Source: a virus. Taken from it: DNA of 49,714 bases. A program made the position numbers and the translations under genes. The notes under the pieces were generated by a model. The model had not been told where the DNA came from. It worked only from the letters and a program-made list of their open reading frames with translations, and ran no database searches. Every line of letters starts with the position of its first letter. Within the stretch, counting starts at the first letter, position 1. This document shows, piece by piece, positions 1-39,815 of this stretch. The stretch lies in IMG/VR virus record IMGVR_UViG_3300033052_000132, positions 1-49,714 of that record, one strand, 5' to 3'.

Positions 1-597
1 TTACTTGCCGGCTGGCTTGGTCGCCGCCGCGCTTGCGCTCTGGTCTGCGCTCTTGGTTGCGTCAGCAAAGGCTTCTGCCGTCATGCCGATCATCAGGCCC
101 GAAGCGCCCTTGGCAACCGAAGTCTTCGGCAGCTTCACCCGAACGGTGCCCGTATCGAGGACGAATTCCGTCTCGGTCACCTCGCCGATCTTGCCCAGCT
201 GCGTGGTGCCGTCCGAGGCATAGACCGGCGTGTCAGCGACGATCGCTGCCGCAGTGTCGGCCTTTGCCGCTGCACCGGCCTTTTCCGCAGCAGTGTCGAG
301 TTCGGCTTTCGTCATACCAAGGACCGGGCCCTTGGGGCCATTGCCAAGCGCCGTAAGCGCAAGCGTCGCCATATTCTTGCCCGTGTCGATAACGAAGTTC
401 GGCGCGGTGATGCTCTTGATGGTTCCGACCTCTGCGCCAGCCGTGTCATAGACAGTTGCACCCACGGTCGGCGTAGCAGCAGTTGCCGATGCGGTGGCGG
501 TGGTGTCCGCAGCCGCCTCTTGTGCGTTTGCTGCGATCGAAAACGGGGCAGTTGCGACGAGAAGGGCTGCAGTTAGATGGCGAATTTTCACAAGCAT
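1..597 (-). CDS. exported protein with two PRC-barrel-like repeats (host gene)
   Basis: A 198-residue protein with a typical Sec signal peptide (hydrophobic core LTAALLVATAPF, cleavage after ANAQ). The mature part contains two similar units of about 55 residues. Each opens with a 'VYD..G..(L/V)G.I' strand, continues with '(F/V)V(I/L)DTG' and closes with '(V)LGMT' or '(L)MIGMT'. This looks like a duplicated PRC-barrel-like fold and suggests a periplasmic or envelope protein of unknown role. A reading frame extends 14 codons further upstream, but the ATG at 597 begins the signal peptide and has AGGA just before it, so it is preferred. The gene lies outside the prophage, on the chromosomal side of the tRNA fragment. 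Confidence 0.75.
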   Translation of the reverse strand: MLVKIRHLTAALLVATAPFSIAANAQEAAADTTATASATAATPTVGATVYDTAGAEVGTIKSITAPNFVIDTGKNMATLALTALGNGPKGPVLGMTKAELDTAAEKAGAAAKADTAAAIVADTPVYASDGTTQLGKIGEVTETEFVLDTGTVRVKLPKTSVAKGASGLMIGMTAEAFADATKSADQSASAAATKPAGK

Positions 598-743
598 TTT
601 CCTGTGCTGTTTTCGGAATAACAGCAGCAAGGTCGCCATTACTGTTCCATTGCGGAAGGCTTGTTGCGACCTCCGGAGCAGCTTTTTCTGATGAAATGAA
701 AGACTTGTGCCTCACGGACGACGAAGCGAGCATGCCCGGCAAA

Positions 744-774: not shown

Positions 775-793
775 ATCATCTCGAACGATGAAG

Positions 794-839
794 TGGTCGG
801 GGAAAGAGGATTCGAACCTCCGGCCCCTGCCTCCCGAAG
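794..839 (-). tRNA. 3' half of tRNA-Pro(CGG); prophage attachment-site core
   Basis: On the minus strand this reads from the anticodon loop TTCGGGA (anticodon CGG, proline) through the 3' anticodon stem GGCAG, a five-base variable loop, a T arm with loop TTCGAAT, the acceptor strand TTCCCCG, the discriminator A and CCA. The matching 5' half (acceptor CGGGGAA, D arm, 5' anticodon stem CTGCC) is absent. Sequence upstream of the anticodon loop is unrelated. A tRNA cut at the anticodon loop is the classic scar of tyrosine-recombinase integration. The intact, phage-restored tRNA should sit at the far prophage end, to the right of this window. The exact boundary of the crossover core cannot be set without that end. 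Confidence 0.85.
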
Positions 840-840
840 A

Positions 841-902
841 CGATGCACCTGACAGCATATGGCGCTTTTTCGCTGTTTTCCGTGCATCGCAGGTATCACC
901 TG
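841..902. repeat. inverted repeats at the prophage end (possible recombinase arm sites)
   Basis: CGATGCAC (841-848) is perfectly inverted as GTGCATCG (882-889). Immediately after it lies CAGGT-ATC-ACCTG (890-902), a second perfect dyad, and the heptamer CACCTGA occurs at 846-852 and 898-904 or within one base of those positions. These adjoin the tRNA fragment inside the prophage, where integrase and excisionase arm sites usually lie. That role is inferred from position only. Confidence 0.45.
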
Positions 903-1269: not shown

Positions 1270-1417
1270 GCGCAGAAGAGATTGCGGCGACGATAACCTG
1301 AAAGCCATGTGTCAGCGGTGCCATAACCGATACGACGCGCCGATGCGCCGTGCTGGCATTCGTGAGCGCGCCTTTGCTGATCAAGGCATCCTCTTTGCAA
1401 CGGAGCAACCCGCATGA
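1266..1417 (+). pseudogene. remnant of an HNH-like small protein gene (C-terminal part only)
   Basis: An ATG at 1266 with a good GGAGA leader opens an 11-codon frame (MSAEEIAA...) that soon stops. From about 1289 a different frame encodes 42 residues, including 'DNLKAMCQRCHNRYD' and 'MRRAGIRERA', and ends in a TGA overlapping the next ATG. The 'NL.AMCQRCH..YD' element is the usual C-terminal part of small HNH-like phage proteins. The likeliest reading is that an internal deletion or frameshift removed the middle of the gene and left its start signal and its tail. An alternative is that the C-terminal frame is chance coding. Confidence 0.55.
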
Positions 1418-1851
1418 CCGACAATCAAACCGCTAGCGCAGGGGTGACGGTGGAAAACGGATGCGTGGCCTTCCGTCTGCTTGTCTGTGGCGGTCGCGCT
1501 TATAGCGACGAGCGGGCGATGGCTTGGGAACTGTCACGCTGGGCCATGCGGTACGATGGCCTAGAGATCATCACCGGATACGATCCTGACAACGTGCGCT
1601 TTCAGGGTGCTGACCAGTTGGCCCACGAATGGGCGCTGTCGAACGGCATCCCTGCATTTCCGTTTCCCGCGCCGTGGCGGTTGAAAGGCAACTACGCGGG
1701 ACCGTTCCGCAATCAGCGCATGTTGGACTTTGGCAAGCCGCATGGCGTTGTCGCGTTCCCCGGAGGTCGTGGCACTGCCGATATGTGCACGCGCGCCGAG
1801 AGGGCAGGCATCAAGCCTATCCGCATCCCCACACCCCCGGAGGCCGTATGA
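1414..1851 (+). CDS. DUF2493 / SLOG-superfamily nucleotide-binding protein
   Basis: A 145-residue protein of the DUF2493 (YspA/cpYpsA-related SLOG) type. The strand-loop 'LLVCGGRAYSD' near residue 22 is followed by 'GADQLAHEWA' near residue 65, and 'GPFRNQRMLD' and 'GVVAFPGGRGTADMC' follow near residues 97 and 112. The glycine-rich 'PGGRGT' is the nucleotide- or ligand-binding loop of this Rossmann-like fold. SLOG proteins bind nucleotide-derived ligands and are common phage cargo, but their substrate is generally unknown. The gene starts ATGA over the stop of the preceding remnant, and its own stop overlaps the next ATG, so it is translated as part of the chain. Confidence 0.8.
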   Translation: MTDNQTASAGVTVENGCVAFRLLVCGGRAYSDERAMAWELSRWAMRYDGLEIITGYDPDNVRFQGADQLAHEWALSNGIPAFPFPAPWRLKGNYAGPFRNQRMLDFGKPHGVVAFPGGRGTADMCTRAERAGIKPIRIPTPPEAV

Positions 1852-2174
1852 CCGATACAACGCCTAAAGCCTGCCCCTTCTGTGGTGGGGAGGCAAATAC
1901 CGAAATTCGGCACAGTCGCATTGATGGCGTCAAAGACCGTCACTTCCCGTCTTGCCTGAATGGCGATTGCCCAGCGTTCATAGTTGAGCCCTACGTCACT
2001 TACTCAACGAAGCGCGAAGCCCTCACAGCCTGGAACACCAGAGCCAACGCAGACGCGCGACTTGTGGAGGCGTTGAGGGCTGTGGACGCATTGCTGCACG
2101 AGCACGGATATGAGCCAGAAGGCACCATGCGCCACACTATCCGCGCTGCTCTCTCAGAGGTGAGCCATGGATAA
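1848..2174 (+). CDS. Lar-type (restriction alleviation-like) zinc protein
   Basis: A 108-residue protein. The N-terminal 'KACPFCGGEA', a second cysteine pair around 'CLNGDCPAF', and 'TKREALTAWNTRA' form the signature of the Lar restriction-alleviation family (zinc ribbon followed by 'A...WN.R'). In the Rac prophage, Lar modulates type I restriction. Many phage paralogues are untested, so an anti-restriction role is only suggested. The C-terminal half (about residues 55-108) is helical and resembles other phage small-protein tails. GGAGG lies at 1839-1843, just before the ATG at 1848, which overlaps the preceding stop. Confidence 0.75.
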   Translation: MTDTTPKACPFCGGEANTEIRHSRIDGVKDRHFPSCLNGDCPAFIVEPYVTYSTKREALTAWNTRANADARLVEALRAVDALLHEHGYEPEGTMRHTIRAALSEVSHG

Positions 2175-2192: not shown

Positions 2193-2801
2193 ATGATGGC
2201 ACTGCTCGACAATGGGCAGGACTTGAACGCCTGCGAAGCGGAGATCGGCGCGAAGGTCGGCCAGTTGCTGACCCCGCTGACCCGCTACAAGTTGCGCGAC
2301 CCATCCCGACCATGGGCCATCGACAACGGCGGGTTTAAGCAGCTCGACATTCCCGGCCTGCTTTCGCTGCTGAAGCGGGAAGCGCACCATCGGGATAACT
2401 GCCTGTTCGTCGCCGTGCCTGACATCGTGGGCAATGCGCAGCGGACGCGCGAACTGTTCGACCACTTCGCGCCGATGATGGATGGCTGGCGCTTGGCGCT
2501 GGTGTGTCAGGACGGTCAAGAGCACCTGCCTATTCCGTGGGATCAGATCGCAGCCGTTTTTATCGGCGGATCGACCAACTGGAAATACAGCGGGCACGTC
2601 GAGGCCATCGTCAAGACCGCCAAGATACTCGGCAAGCATGTCCACATCGGGCGCGTAAACCATCCTGATCGATGGAGCCATTTCGAGGCCATGGGCGCAG
2701 ACACCTGCGATGGCACCGGGATAGCCCGCTATTCACACATGCGCCGCGCCATTGCCGAGCGCGGACAGGTTGCAACCCTTTTTGATGGAGAAGCCGCGTG
2801 A
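2193..2801 (+). CDS. tRNA-guanine transglycosylase / DpdA-like protein
   Basis: A 202-residue protein with the core of the tRNA-guanine transglycosylase (TGT) fold, much shorter than bacterial TGT. 'WAIDNGGFK' (Asp about residue 44) matches the TGT 'DSGGFQ' substrate-binding loop. 'VFIGGSTNWK' matches the glycine loop that holds the base. 'GADTCDGTG' (Asp about residue 173) lies where TGT has its nucleophilic Asp. Phage and DpdA relatives insert 7-deazaguanine bases into DNA rather than tRNA. The zinc-site cysteines of bacterial TGT are not evident. GGAGG at 2182-2186 precedes the ATG; a second ATG follows at 2196. Its stop overlaps the start of the QueD-like gene, which supports a shared pathway. 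DNA versus tRNA as the target is inferred. Confidence 0.75.
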   Translation: MMALLDNGQDLNACEAEIGAKVGQLLTPLTRYKLRDPSRPWAIDNGGFKQLDIPGLLSLLKREAHHRDNCLFVAVPDIVGNAQRTRELFDHFAPMMDGWRLALVCQDGQEHLPIPWDQIAAVFIGGSTNWKYSGHVEAIVKTAKILGKHVHIGRVNHPDRWSHFEAMGADTCDGTGIARYSHMRRAIAERGQVATLFDGEAA

Positions 2802-3109
2802 TGCTGACCGGAGCAGGCGCAATCCTGCAAGTCGCCCACACTGGCCCCGATGGTAGGCTGCACGGCCACACCTACGAGGTCATTGGCTGGTGGGAAGGTG
2901 AACCCTGCGCTGTAGAGATGCAGGGCAAACTGGAGGCGTGGATTGCCAAGTTCGACCACCAGTCACTTCCACCGCGCATGAGCCGCGCTGAGGACATCGC
3001 GCGTCAATGCAAGATGGCGCTGGGCTGTGCCGAGGTCCAAGTGAACCGCCCCCTTGAGCGCCTTTATGCGCGCACCACTCACCAACCCAAGGAACCCAGC
3101 CATGGATAA
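2801..3109 (+). CDS. QueD/PTPS-like protein lacking the usual catalytic Cys
   Basis: A 102-residue protein of the 6-pyruvoyl-tetrahydropterin synthase / 6-carboxytetrahydropterin synthase (QueD) fold. The zinc ligands are clear: His13 in 'VAH', then His21 and His23 in 'LHGHTYEV'. The catalytic Asp-His pair appears as 'FDH' (about 52-53) and the conserved Glu as 'RPLER' (about 86). The nucleophilic Cys expected four residues before the HGH motif is replaced (Asp17 in my numbering), so normal QueD chemistry is doubtful. QueD makes a precursor of 7-deazaguanines. The ATG overlaps the stop of the DpdA-like gene by one base; a GTG at 2798 is an alternative start. Confidence 0.7.
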   Translation: MLTGAGAILQVAHTGPDGRLHGHTYEVIGWWEGEPCAVEMQGKLEAWIAKFDHQSLPPRMSRAEDIARQCKMALGCAEVQVNRPLERLYARTTHQPKEPSHG

Positions 3110-10492: not shown

Positions 10493-10582
10493 CCCTTTCG
10501 GTGAAGCCGCGCGTGCGATATGAACGACGCGCCGGGAGTGCTCACCCCGGCCACGCAACAGAGCATAGGAAAGGATCGGACA

Positions 10583-11239
10583 ATGCAGCTTGCACAACTG
10601 GCTTCCGATTGGCGCGGGAACGTCCTGCCCTATGGGATGATGGCAGAATTGAAGCATGACGGATTCAGATGCCTACGCTTCCGGGACATTGAGGGCCGCA
10701 ATCGGCTTTGGACCCGTAACGGAATGCCGATTGAGGGATGCGACCATATCGCCCACCGCCTGGACCTGATCGAGCAGGAAGCCGGGGAACCGCTCTTCAT
10801 TGATGGCGAGTTGGTGGTCGATGGCTCTCTTGCCGCCACAAAGCGCTGGGTCGAAACGGATTGGCGCATGGGCGGGGAGAAGGGCACATTCTACGCCTTC
10901 GACGTTCTACCCTACCGTGAGTGGCAGAAGGGCGGGACCAATCGCCCGCTGTGTGAGCGCAAGGCCATGCTCAAGAAGCTGATCGATGCGGTCGGAGAAC
11001 CTTGGGAATGGCGCCCGCGCAGCCATGGGCGAGACGAGGGGGCTACCCCGGTTGTCTATGTCGATGATGAGTGGGTTTTCACGCCGGAGCAGGCCCTATC
11101 CGTGGCGCGCGGTAAGTGGGCGCAGGATCTTGAGGGCGCGATGCTCAAGGACCCCGAGGCCGGATATGTCCGGGGCCGCAATGGGCACTGGCTCAAGGTA
11201 AAGCAGGCCAACGCCCACAAGTGGAGCATGGCAGCGTGA
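10583..11239 (+). CDS. minimal ATP-dependent DNA ligase
   Basis: A 218-residue phage-type ATP-dependent DNA ligase, which seals nicks through a lysyl-AMP intermediate. The motifs occur in order: I 'ELKHDGFR' (adenylated Lys24), Ia/II 'WTRNGMPI', III 'FIDGELVV' (about residue 75), IIIa 'TFYAFDVLP', IV 'LEGAMLKD', V 'WLKVKQ'. It comprises the nucleotidyltransferase core only, with no room for a full OB-fold domain or added DNA-binding domain. AGGAAAGGA lies before ATG 10583; in-frame upstream starts lack a site. It is followed by a GTG start overlapping its stop. It may act in phage replication or repair. Confidence 0.9.
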   Translation: MQLAQLASDWRGNVLPYGMMAELKHDGFRCLRFRDIEGRNRLWTRNGMPIEGCDHIAHRLDLIEQEAGEPLFIDGELVVDGSLAATKRWVETDWRMGGEKGTFYAFDVLPYREWQKGGTNRPLCERKAMLKKLIDAVGEPWEWRPRSHGRDEGATPVVYVDDEWVFTPEQALSVARGKWAQDLEGAMLKDPEAGYVRGRNGHWLKVKQANAHKWSMAA

Positions 11240-36455: not shown

Positions 36456-39400
36456 TCAATATGCCCTCGTTTTTTCATCCACGTGTCGTTCCGCGCCCTC
36501 GATCTGCAAGTTGGTGAGGTTAGGGCCGAAGCGACAGATCAGGCTGTGGATGCGACCGTTGAACGGGCGAGCGGAACCAGTGCGTCGACCGATGTAGCAG
36601 ACGCTCGCAATGAACTGACCAGTACCCTGATCAGTTAGCGTCTGGGCAACCTGGACACCATTTACCCGAAGGCTTGCGCTGTCTCCGGAAATGTCTCCTA
36701 GGCCGGCCAGCACTGTAGTGAGAGGAGATGGGAATGTAGCCGGGGAGATAGCATTGACCGCCACGCTTCCTCTGCTTGTAAACCCAAGGTCAGGTGCGTC
36801 AGCGTTTCGGGGGGCTTCAAGTGATAGCGATCCAGCGCCTGTGCCTGTCTCGAACACGCAGCCAGTGGTGCCAGCATCGCTCAGCTTGCGAACACCCGCA
36901 AACACCTGGGCCTTGTCCGTTCCCGGCGTGACTGTGCCGGTGAGAAGGAAGTCGTCCACGCCATCGAACGCGAGGTAATAGAGATCGGGGACGCCTGCCT
37001 CGGTGATGTCGATCGAGGCCCCGACTCTCTGGTAGTTCGTGGCAACAGCCCCGAACTCAGCCTGTGGGTGCCAGACGAGGATATCTGCGGCACCGGGAGT
37101 ACCCCAGATGTCCCGCTTGGCAATGCGTATCTCATGGTTGCCAGGAGTCACCCCTGTTCGGGGATAGGTGACCCTCTGCCACTCACTGGTGACGTTGAAG
37201 TTCTGTACCGCTCCGCAGGAGAGAATGGTCACCAGTACGTCCCCCGCCAGCGAGCGCAGCCAGACTGATGCCACCGTGTTCGGCTGACCGGATGGTACGT
37301 TGAACTGTGATGAGGCGACCTGAGAGTTTCCCACTCCCCCAGAGGGTCCTCCGTCTAGCTGAAAGCGTGTTGCTGTGGGGGTTCCATCGGGAGCCACGCC
37401 GTAGTTTGGGGTCACCACCGGCATGGCTCCAGGCGCAGCCGTTCCCTTTATCCAGACAGAATTCGTGAGTTCCTCGGTGAACGTGAGGAGGTTGCGAATT
37501 CCTGTGGCTGGGTTCCTTCCAAGGATCGGGCGACTTGCAGTGGTGGGCTGTGTCGCGTGGTTCCCGAACAGGCGAGAAAGAGAGTAGAGCCTGTAGGTGG
37601 CAGTGCTGTTGTTGTCGTTGTTGCAGATCGTGATGCTGGCAGACAGCACGGAGAGGAGGACTGTCCGACGCTGACCCGCCGTGAGTGTGGCGATGGGGTT
37701 GCCTGTGCCACCTGTCCGCACGGAGATGGACGCCGTGCCTGTGTTCTCCACATCAACGGCATACCACGCTCCGGTGATGGCGGCGAACAGTGGGTAGCCC
37801 ATGTTGCTCACGTCTGTTCGCGGGGCGGTCCCCACACCAGTAACCGGGTCGTATGTAGCGGGTGAGGGTGGCGTCCCGTTCTGCGATACCACGCCTGTCC
37901 CAAGCAGTTCCGGTCCACGTGCCAGCCCCTGCGACTTGTCGAGCATGATGGCGACTGACTGCCCTGGGGCGGTCACTGGGACAAATCCTCCAGTGTCCTG
38001 GAACATCGTTGAGAAGTCGGATGGATCGAGCCAGATGCCCTGCTCGCCAGAGGAGAAGAGCGATGCGGGGAGGAACGCCTGCCACGCCCCCGTCTTGCTG
38101 TTCACCCAGTCCTCGATCTGGTTGAGCGTCCAGTTGGAGAGGTTCGGGCCGAAGCGAAGGATGAGGCTGTAGATGCGTCCGTTGAAGGGCTGTGCTGTCC
38201 CCTGACTGCGCCCAATGTATGCCGGCAGAGCAGCGTAATTCCCCGAGCCCTGATCGCCAGTTCCGGTTGCGACCTGCACACCATTGGCGCGAAGAAGCAC
38301 GGAGTCCGCAGAAACATCACCAAGACCTGCCAGAACCAACGTCTGCGGTGCATTAAAGTCAGCCGTAGTGACATTTGCGGGGATAATGGTGGTGGCACCC
38401 GACTGAAACGAGTAGCCATTGTTGAGGCCGTTCGGTGCCTCTAGCTTCACCCTCGTGTTGCCATTGTCTATCTCTGCCACCGAGGCACGAGCAGCATCGC
38501 TCAGCTTGCGAATGCCCGCAAACATCTGAGCCTTGTCCGTGCCCGGCGTGAGGGTGTTGGTGACAAGGAAGTCGTCCACACCATCGAACGCGAGGAAGTA
38601 GCAGTCTGCGACACCTGGCTCGCTGATGTTGTTGCTGGAGTAGTTGAACTGGAAGGCCGTTCTCGCGGCCCCCAGTTCAAGTTGAATGCCCTTGATGCGA
38701 TAGGTCACATCGATTGCGGCACCGTTCACCATCTGGAGAATAATCTCCGTGCGAACTTGGTTTCCTGTCGAAAATGTGCGCGATGCAGTGAGGAAAGTAT
38801 CCGTCTCTCCCGCCACATTCGAACTGCTTTGGCCGATGTAGGTGGAGGGCGCTGTCTCTTCGACGACTGCTACGCGAAGGTTGGGATTGTTCGTCGTACC
38901 GCTGATCATTCTGGAATAAGCTGACGCGGTGTAAGTCAGGCCCACGCTGGCAGGATTGCGGCTTATTGCGCTGCCGTAGGTGGTGCTGTGAAAGGTATTG
39001 GTTGCCGTCCCTTGGTAGCGATAGTCCACATAGGGCAGGCCGTCAGTGTCGATGCCGCTCCCAATCTTTGTTGCGGTCACACCATTGTGGACGACCGACG
39101 CTGGCCAGATTGATGTGTTTCCGACGTCCGCACTACCGTTCGCCAGATTGCGCACCCCGGAAGCGGGATTCCGCCCAAGAACCGGTCGGCTCGCAGCGGT
39201 AGCCTGGTAGGCATGGTTGCCAAGCACCTCCCTGACGGAGATGTCAGTGACTTCTAGGATGCTCCCAGTAGCGGTGCCCGAGAGGCCAATGTCAAAGTTG
39301 GCGTTGCTCGCCCCCCGTATCGTTGTGATGGTCACCCACTCAGCCCCAACCACCGGAAGGAGAGTGTTCGGCACGAGAAACATGGTGGCCGTCCCCACCA

Positions 39401-39815
39401 GTCGCCGGACGCGGAGGGAGATCTGGTAGATCTTCCCCACGGTCAGGATGCCTGAGCGACGAATACCCGGAGCGGTGTCGCCCTGTATCTGTGCCGCACC
39501 ACCGTTGAAGGTTGTCGTGTTGCCAACCCCCAGCAGCGCCCACCCTGAATTGCCGCTCGCGAAAGATCCGTTGGCAACAAGCTCAGGACCGAGTGCGCGA
39601 TTCTGCGACTTGTCCATTGCTAGGCCGACAGTCTGCCCAACTGCGGTTACCGGAGTAGCGCCGAGGTTGTCCTGAAACAGTGTCGAAAGGTCGGAGGGAT
39701 CGAGCCAAATGCCCGGCTCATTCGCCGCAAACACGGCCGCAGGGCTAAAGCCCCGGTTCCTGCGTAGGCGCGGGCCTAAGCCGAAGGGTCGGAAGCCGAA
39801 CGAGCGAAGAGACAT
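36456..39815 (-). CDS. 1119-residue internally duplicated fibre-like protein between terminase and gpW
   Basis: A very large beta-rich protein of two tandem units of about 500-550 residues. Each unit has 'GIWLDPSD(L/F)ST(L/M)FQD', '(V/I)LGRNPA(S/T)G(V/I)RNL', 'YYLAFDGVDDF' (or YFLAFDGVDDF), 'PGTDKAQ(M/V)FAG(I/V)RKLSDA' and 'PFNGRI(Y/H)SLI.RFGPNL'. This is characteristic of concanavalin/LamG-like carbohydrate-binding regions used as fibres or adhesins. The location, between the terminase and gpW genes, is unusual. It may be a head fibre, a tail-fibre added by recombination, or a lysogeny factor. Confidence 0.7.
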   Translation of the reverse strand: MSLRSFGFRPFGLGPRLRRNRGFSPAAVFAANEPGIWLDPSDLSTLFQDNLGATPVTAVGQTVGLAMDKSQNRALGPELVANGSFASGNSGWALLGVGNTTTFNGGAAQIQGDTAPGIRRSGILTVGKIYQISLRVRRLVGTATMFLVPNTLLPVVGAEWVTITTIRGASNANFDIGLSGTATGSILEVTDISVREVLGNHAYQATAASRPVLGRNPASGVRNLANGSADVGNTSIWPASVVHNGVTATKIGSGIDTDGLPYVDYRYQGTATNTFHSTTYGSAISRNPASVGLTYTASAYSRMISGTTNNPNLRVAVVEETAPSTYIGQSSSNVAGETDTFLTASRTFSTGNQVRTEIILQMVNGAAIDVTYRIKGIQLELGAARTAFQFNYSSNNISEPGVADCYFLAFDGVDDFLVTNTLTPGTDKAQMFAGIRKLSDAARASVAEIDNGNTRVKLEAPNGLNNGYSFQSGATTIIPANVTTADFNAPQTLVLAGLGDVSADSVLLRANGVQVATGTGDQGSGNYAALPAYIGRSQGTAQPFNGRIYSLILRFGPNLSNWTLNQIEDWVNSKTGAWQAFLPASLFSSGEQGIWLDPSDFSTMFQDTGGFVPVTAPGQSVAIMLDKSQGLARGPELLGTGVVSQNGTPPSPATYDPVTGVGTAPRTDVSNMGYPLFAAITGAWYAVDVENTGTASISVRTGGTGNPIATLTAGQRRTVLLSVLSASITICNNDNNSTATYRLYSLSRLFGNHATQPTTASRPILGRNPATGIRNLLTFTEELTNSVWIKGTAAPGAMPVVTPNYGVAPDGTPTATRFQLDGGPSGGVGNSQVASSQFNVPSGQPNTVASVWLRSLAGDVLVTILSCGAVQNFNVTSEWQRVTYPRTGVTPGNHEIRIAKRDIWGTPGAADILVWHPQAEFGAVATNYQRVGASIDITEAGVPDLYYLAFDGVDDFLLTGTVTPGTDKAQVFAGVRKLSDAGTTGCVFETGTGAGSLSLEAPRNADAPDLGFTSRGSVAVNAISPATFPSPLTTVLAGLGDISGDSASLRVNGVQVAQTLTDQGTGQFIASVCYIGRRTGSARPFNGRIHSLICRFGPNLTNLQIEGAERHVDEKTRAY

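Follow-up and report, generated by a model that had tools for sequence, protein, structure and literature searches.

The window analysed here (49,714 bases) covers one virus record from its first base to its last. It contains two open reading frames on the same strand, at 2193-2801 and 2801-3109, which we call gene A and gene B and which lie where an earlier note on this DNA had placed them. The features at and around this locus are the following:

1-639, minus strand: flanking host gene, PRC-barrel-like (70% DNA match to Novosphingobium G001)
791-846, minus strand: 3' half of a tRNA gene, probable attachment site with host DNA to its left (95-100% match)
1414-1851, plus strand: neighbouring gene for a YspA/cpYpsA-related SLOG protein (PF10686, E 2.3e-9)
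1848-2174, plus strand: neighbouring gene for a Lar-like protein (PF14354, 29.9 bits against a cut-off of 28.6)
2193-2801, plus strand: gene A, minimal TIM-barrel protein of the TGT superfamily, phrog_15826 family, proposed 7-deazaguanine transglycosylase, 202 aa
2799-2803, plus strand: TGATG, stop of A and start of B with one base shared
2801-3109, plus strand: gene B, T-fold protein, QueD-like without the catalytic Cys, proposed base-supply or tailoring protein, 102 aa

The one-base overlap described in the earlier note was recovered, with the stop codon of A (TGA, 2799-2801) running into the start codon of B (ATG, 2801-2803). Gene A starts with ATG behind a plausible GGAG-type ribosome-binding site; gene B is also preceded by a plausible ribosome-binding site and has an alternative in-frame start, GTG at 2798. 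When compared with the copies in a Novosphingobium genome (L155), gene A showed a dN of 0.12 and a dS of 1.27 and gene B a dN of 0.13 and a dS of 1.51, giving dN/dS values of about 0.10 and 0.08, respectively. Both genes are under purifying selection. Among the A-B loci compared with the window, DNA similarity was confined to the two-gene cassette, which therefore seems to be mobile as a unit.

Gene A had been described as TGT-like from two motifs, and both of these (DNGGF at residues 44-48 and GADTCDG at 168-174) are present. The conserved positions of A are:

2322-2330, plus strand: DNG, residues 44-46, matching in order and sequence the D-S-G-G-F motif with the base-binding Asp of TGT (at least 90% conserved over 50 sequences)
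2418-2423, plus strand: PD, residues 76-77 (invariant in 50 sequences)
2508-2516, plus strand: QDG, residues 106-108 (invariant in 50 sequences)
2565-2570, plus strand: GG, residues 125-126 (invariant in 50 sequences)
2643-2660, plus strand: HxGRxN, residues 151-156, a family-specific motif (H, G, R and N invariant)
2709-2714, plus strand: DG, residues 173-174, with the candidate nucleophilic Asp (invariant; assigned by order to the TGT M-F-D position)

The TGT-type active-site motifs thus occur in the right order (D-x-G, D, Q, GG, D), an equivalence by order and not by superposition. DNG 44-46 was also invariant in a set of 15 diverse sequences, and K131 was invariant in an alignment of 50 IMG/VR sequences. 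The AlphaFold2 model (mean pLDDT 94.6, pTM 0.90) predicts a complete eight-strand barrel within 202 residues, the eighth strand being short. The best Foldseek match in the PDB was a tRNA-guanine transglycosylase (E 3.9e-5, TM 0.51), in agreement with the fold that the earlier note had expected. This match scored just slightly above transaldolase and other TIM barrels, so the assignment to TGT leans on motifs and neighbouring genes as much as on the fold. Single-sequence searches with A matched no TGT model in Pfam and no solved structure, their sole match being phrog_15826 of unknown function (E 1e-33), and profile searches against the PDB returned nothing usable.

Relatives of A were found in 24 records of isolated phages, several of them annotated as 'DpdA-like'. 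They include those of Synechococcus phages JY42 and Yong-M4-211 (67%); other carriers are the E. coli phages phiG7 and SHIN8, Vibrio phage R29Z and phages of Arthrobacter, Rhodococcus, Mycobacterium and Erythrobacter. In phiG7, a Seuratvirus (L004:7932-8524), and in SHIN8 the homologue of A is split into two overlapping frames, which suggests, as far as can be read from the sequences, either a decayed gene or a programmed frameshift. Two A-family members, Mycobacterium phage Phegasus gp54 and Arthrobacter phage Sonali gp81 (31-38% identity), carry the SEA-PHAGES name 'DpdA-like tRNA-guanine transglycosylase', an annotation made by similarity; unlike in the window, neither is directly adjoined by a QueD-like partner. 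In Phegasus, as in Rhodococcus phage ReqiPine5, the gene adjoining A is YhhQ.

DpdA inserts 7-deazaguanine into phage DNA and thereby protects it, and the DNA of Salmonella phage 7-11 contains dADG (PMC6884629). The earlier note had called A DpdA/TGT-like, and a reading of A as such a DpdA was not supported. A profile of the family (A4) found nothing in CAjan, 9g, Salmonella phage 7-11, nt-1, CP220 or phi38:2, so that no DpdA of a reference phage was recovered and the simple equation of A with DpdA was rejected. By its profile, A belongs to none of the characterised DpdA families. The profile does match A in Sonali, phiG7 and R29Z, three isolates which possess a full DpdA with preQ0 genes as well, and the role of A in these phages may therefore differ. 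The full preQ0 clusters of Sonali and phiG7, like those of CAjan and 9g, share the metabolic theme of the window; they encode FolE, QueD, QueE, QueC and a full DpdA, whereas the window has none of these, and the B family is absent from them.

A more distant kinship may exist: in profile-profile comparison with hhalign, A aligned moderately with the 7-11-type DpdA family (77%, E 2e-5) and with full DpdA1 (17.6%, E 1.4e-3); DpdA2 gave nothing, and the DpdA2 of nt-1 reached 0.1%. The nearest known arrangement is the DpdA1 singleton type of phage 7-11, in which DpdA occurs without preQ0 genes: in both cases a TGT-superfamily protein is encoded by a phage without the preQ0 pathway, which would need precursors from the host, and the 7-11-type family pairs with B too. 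In contrast to that type, A is shorter, forms a separate profile family, has its own HxGRxN motif and is accompanied by a varying 7-deazaguanine gene.

The AlphaFold2 model of B had a mean pLDDT of 92.8, and its 16 best Foldseek matches in the PDB were all QueD/PTPS proteins (best E 3.7e-6, TM 0.71-0.79; TM 0.75-0.79 against E. coli QueD, 4ntk), whereas a single-sequence Pfam search placed PTPS below the cut-off (17.1 against 22.4 bits). The residues which decide how this T-fold is to be read are:

2837-2839, plus strand: His13, zinc-type ligand (invariant in 23 homologues)
2849-2851, plus strand: Asp17, at the position of the cysteine in the QueD motif CxxxHGH (Cys in 0 of 23 B sequences against 10 of 10 true QueDs)
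2861-2869, plus strand: HGH, residues 21-23, zinc-type ligands (invariant in 23 homologues)
2954-2959, plus strand: Asp52-His53, retained QueD-type DH pair (invariant in 23 homologues)
3047-3058, plus strand: RPLE, residues 83-86, with an invariant Arg at the alignment position of the pterin-anchoring Glu of QueD

B therefore resembles QueD (6-carboxytetrahydropterin synthase, PTPS-I) in its T-fold, in the HGH and upstream His ligands, which are as the earlier note wrote them (H13, H21, H23), and in the DH pair. Invariant in the 23 homologues were G4, H13, H21, G22, H23, D52, H53, E64 and R83. In QueD the cysteine is required for the chemistry, and the glutamate whose place is taken by Arg in B anchors the pterin. 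Both the catalytic Cys and the anchoring Glu are missing in all 23 aligned B homologues: the residue four positions before HGH is D, R, T, S, E or I and never C, and in a wider B set the cysteine was found in 0 of 36. The true QueDs used for comparison, taken from beside A or from phage pathways, had the Cys and the anchoring Glu (ET motif) in all 10 cases. Likewise, none of the 23 B homologues contained the signature motif of PTPS-I (CxxxHGH), PTPS-II (CxxxxxHGH) or PTPS-III (ExxHGH) (PMC5041015). A view of B, named QueD-like in the earlier note, as simply a QueD was rejected on these residues, and as B is without residues that the QueD enzyme needs, it probably does something new.

Genes of the B family are rare. 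By tblastn the sole real relative among 50,697 phage records was in Caulobacter phage DMCA, and 1 of 398 genomes of the family of Novosphingobium had one. In DMCA a B homologue (gp035, 42%) precedes a DpdA-type gene (gp034), and here too the two genes share one base. Unlike in the window, this partner is a 7-11-type DpdA and not A, and the B homologue is annotated as 6-carboxytetrahydropterin synthase, which, judged by its sequence, it probably is not. Cellulophaga phage phi38:2, considered as a carrier of a second, B-like QueD, was rejected, having a single PTPS gene and no match to B. Just upstream of A in Synechococcus phage Ssp-JY42 (L001:7639-8001) there is a match to the B profile with a degenerate HGH (HEH) and without the Asp-His pair. 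Within the papers available, a literature search for a cysteine-less QueD paralogue or for DpdL returned nothing relevant.

For A we examined gene neighbourhoods in the best 80 of at least 565 matching loci together with earlier matches, giving 83 distinct A genes; due to this sampling, the following partner counts are not natural frequencies. A 7-deazaguanine gene was located within 450 bases of A in 57 of the 83, namely QueC (22), QueD (12), YhhQ (11), B (8), QueE (3) or QueD with QueE (1), and 4 more A genes were at contig edges. Genes of this pathway near but not adjacent to A occurred just in isolates with the full pathway; environmental contigs had none farther from A within the flanks examined. 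On a tree of 63 A proteins, at least 12 changes of partner label were needed. A further partner of A was an 82-aa protein with conserved Cys, Asp and Glu arranged as in QueF, found beside A alone, with QueD or with YhhQ (loci L018:6603-6854, L053:5615-5860, L084:5600-5851, L098:5510-5827 and L157:5744-6001). Its best PDB profile match was a QueF-like archaeosine synthase (E 0.0034); no Pfam model matches the family, and one member matches NCBIfam QueF-II weakly (0.0084). A reductase or an amidotransferase for the inserted base is a possible function of this small family. With the family included, A genes with enough flank and no recognised partner fell from 22 of 83 to 17 of 79.

The B neighbourhoods were more uniform. 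A TGT-like gene adjoined B in 35 of 36 distinct B genes, 27 times a DpdA-type gene of the DMCA gp034 family and 8 times A, and in 5 of the 35 QueE preceded B, which then lay between QueE and the DpdA-type gene. With the profile of the DMCA gp034 family, the DpdA of Salmonella phage 7-11 was found at 1e-49, and weaker matches were the DpdAs of CAjan, 9g, phi38:2, Sonali, phiG7 and R29Z. Two transglycosylase-like families thus share B as a partner in an equivalent position, and no other finding argues as strongly for a DpdA-like action of A. Genome context ties the predicted products of A and B to 7-deazaguanine metabolism, and the two-gene 7-deazaguanine module proposed in the earlier note is supported. 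We also observed a recurrent family of proteins of about 80 aa, with an N-terminal TTGG-type motif and the ending AWPAQHD or AQHRYA, whose genes adjoin the cassette genes or lie between them in cassettes with either type of transglycosylase (L010:4379-4627, L155:3737-3985, L015:6530-6832, L128:6974-7237 and L002:8992-9246).

Elsewhere in the window, a virus record which may be a fragment, no FolE, QueC, QueD, QueE, YhhQ or QueF-like gene was found, as the earlier note had stated for part of this set. Its suggestion that the phage draws on host precursors also appears likely, since a Novosphingobium genome in which A, a small protein and B follow one another also encodes its own TGT and, side by side, its own QueD and QueC. 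In Longispora albida A sits with YhhQ, and no QueC, PTPS or TGT was found there. This case matches that of the mycobacteriophages, which combine YhhQ and A with a host without the pathway (PMC6884629). Both situations fit a companion gene that would act in salvage in hosts that produce no precursor, and in boosting or tailoring in those that do.

The left end of the window points to a related host. The tRNA half at 791-846 has counterparts of 95-100% identity in most of the genomes that were sampled from the family to which the Novosphingobium MAG G001 belongs. Bases 47-467 also have a match in G001 (70%), which lies about 0.9 kb from the copy of this tRNA half in that genome. The tRNA identity was read from the sequence (TTCGAATCC loop, CCA end), and ARAGORN reported no whole tRNA. 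From the tRNA half and the flanking match, host DNA makes up the left 0.8 kb, and a tRNA gene of a sphingomonad-type host is the probable integration site of the phage. The window contains genes for portal and terminase. No tyrosine integrase was found in it, so that the temperate lifestyle given in the earlier note is inferred from the junction in the tRNA 3' half. The Lar-type neighbour named in the same note passed the Pfam cut-off but fell below that of NCBIfam (28.2 against 39.6).

We propose, with slightly better than even confidence, that A and B together make up a compact cassette for 7-deazaguanine which relies on host precursors, A being a transglycosylase and B supplying or tailoring the base by a chemistry other than that of QueD. 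For the substrate, the target polynucleotide, the reaction of B and the protection from nucleases we infer the following steps. The host pathway would supply a 7-deazaguanine precursor to the cassette, and A, as a stripped-down transglycosylase, would put a 7-deazaguanine base in the place of guanine in a polynucleotide, which is most likely phage DNA. B, with its T-fold and intact metal-type ligands, would supply or tailor this base for A by acting on a 7-deazaguanine or pterin intermediate, for example 7-carboxy-7-deazaguanine, the product of QueE. The modified phage DNA might then evade host nucleases. The reaction of B is a guess bounded by the residues that were lost. A 2023 NAR study reportedly describes DpdL as a predicted 7-carboxy-7-deazaguanine decarboxylase. 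More tentatively, and with doubts outweighing confidence, B could be a new T-fold enzyme whose product, made from a 7-deazaguanine intermediate of the host (7-carboxy-7-deazaguanine, for instance), is a base so far unseen in DNA. Two distantly related transglycosylase families, A and the 7-11-type DpdA, would both use this enzyme, in which case a two-gene cassette would replace the usual five-gene pathway.

It is unlikely, in our estimation, that B is instead a divergent QueD which makes 6-carboxytetrahydropterin with another residue in place of the Cys and so boosts the supply of host precursor for A. The retained fold, zinc ligands and DH pair would agree with this, as would the slot beside A, which otherwise holds a true QueD, QueC, QueE or YhhQ, and the QueE-B pairs, which fit consecutive steps; but the PTPS-I, -II and -III motifs (PMC5041015) are absent from all 23 homologues, an invariant Arg replaces the anchoring Glu, and a QueD is already present in the host with the same cassette. 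Still less probable is a non-catalytic B, a subunit binding base or nucleic acid and setting the specificity of its transglycosylase partner. Loss of the catalytic cysteine and the nearly constant position beside a transglycosylase-like gene of either of two families speak for such a subunit, whereas metal ligands and a DH pair that are invariant in 23 homologues suggest that chemistry was retained, and other phages have A without B.

We give an equally small chance to a role of A on tRNA, where it would tune translation in a queuosine-like manner rather than modify DNA. The nearest solved fold is indeed TGT, and Hutinet et al. raised a tRNA role for phages with preQ0 genes and without DpdA (PMC6884629). 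However, A has 202 aa compared with about 370 for TGT, its sequence has no cysteine after the active-site Asp for the TGT zinc site, and B is common to A and the DpdA-type family. It is very improbable that A is a TIM-barrel enzyme of another kind, e.g. a hydrolase of bases or nucleotides that is retained next to deazaguanine genes. The near-equal Foldseek E-values for transaldolases and KDPGal aldolase and the missing Pfam TGT match speak for this, whereas the correct order of the TGT-type motifs, the recurrence of 7-deazaguanine partners and the hhalign matches to DpdA-type families speak against it.

A cassette of A and B with host precursors, the reading we prefer, bears on phages with DpdA and without preQ0 genes, which a 2019 survey found to be the largest group and whose modification status it called hard to predict (PMC6884629). 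In our census, a distinct, small TGT-like family seems as a rule to be accompanied by no more than one or two pathway genes, which were swapped many times. The pattern of companion genes would predict the step at which base supply is limiting in a given host, as well as the base that may be inserted. The same survey saw no correlation of YhhQ with any group (PMC6884629), whereas the census ties YhhQ to a single family of transglycosylase-like proteins. A further addition is B, an uncharacterised relative of QueD that has lost the cysteine.

Some further features of the window were observed. The YspA/cpYpsA-type SLOG gene lies two genes upstream of A here, and a gene of this type is found directly downstream of A in Vibrio phage R29Z (L003:5333-5698). 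An ATP-dependent DNA ligase domain is encoded at 10520-11239 (PF01068, E 4.9e-14), and a 138-base direct repeat with 85% identity (36872-37009 and 38492-38629) lies inside a long minus-strand open reading frame at 36456-39815.
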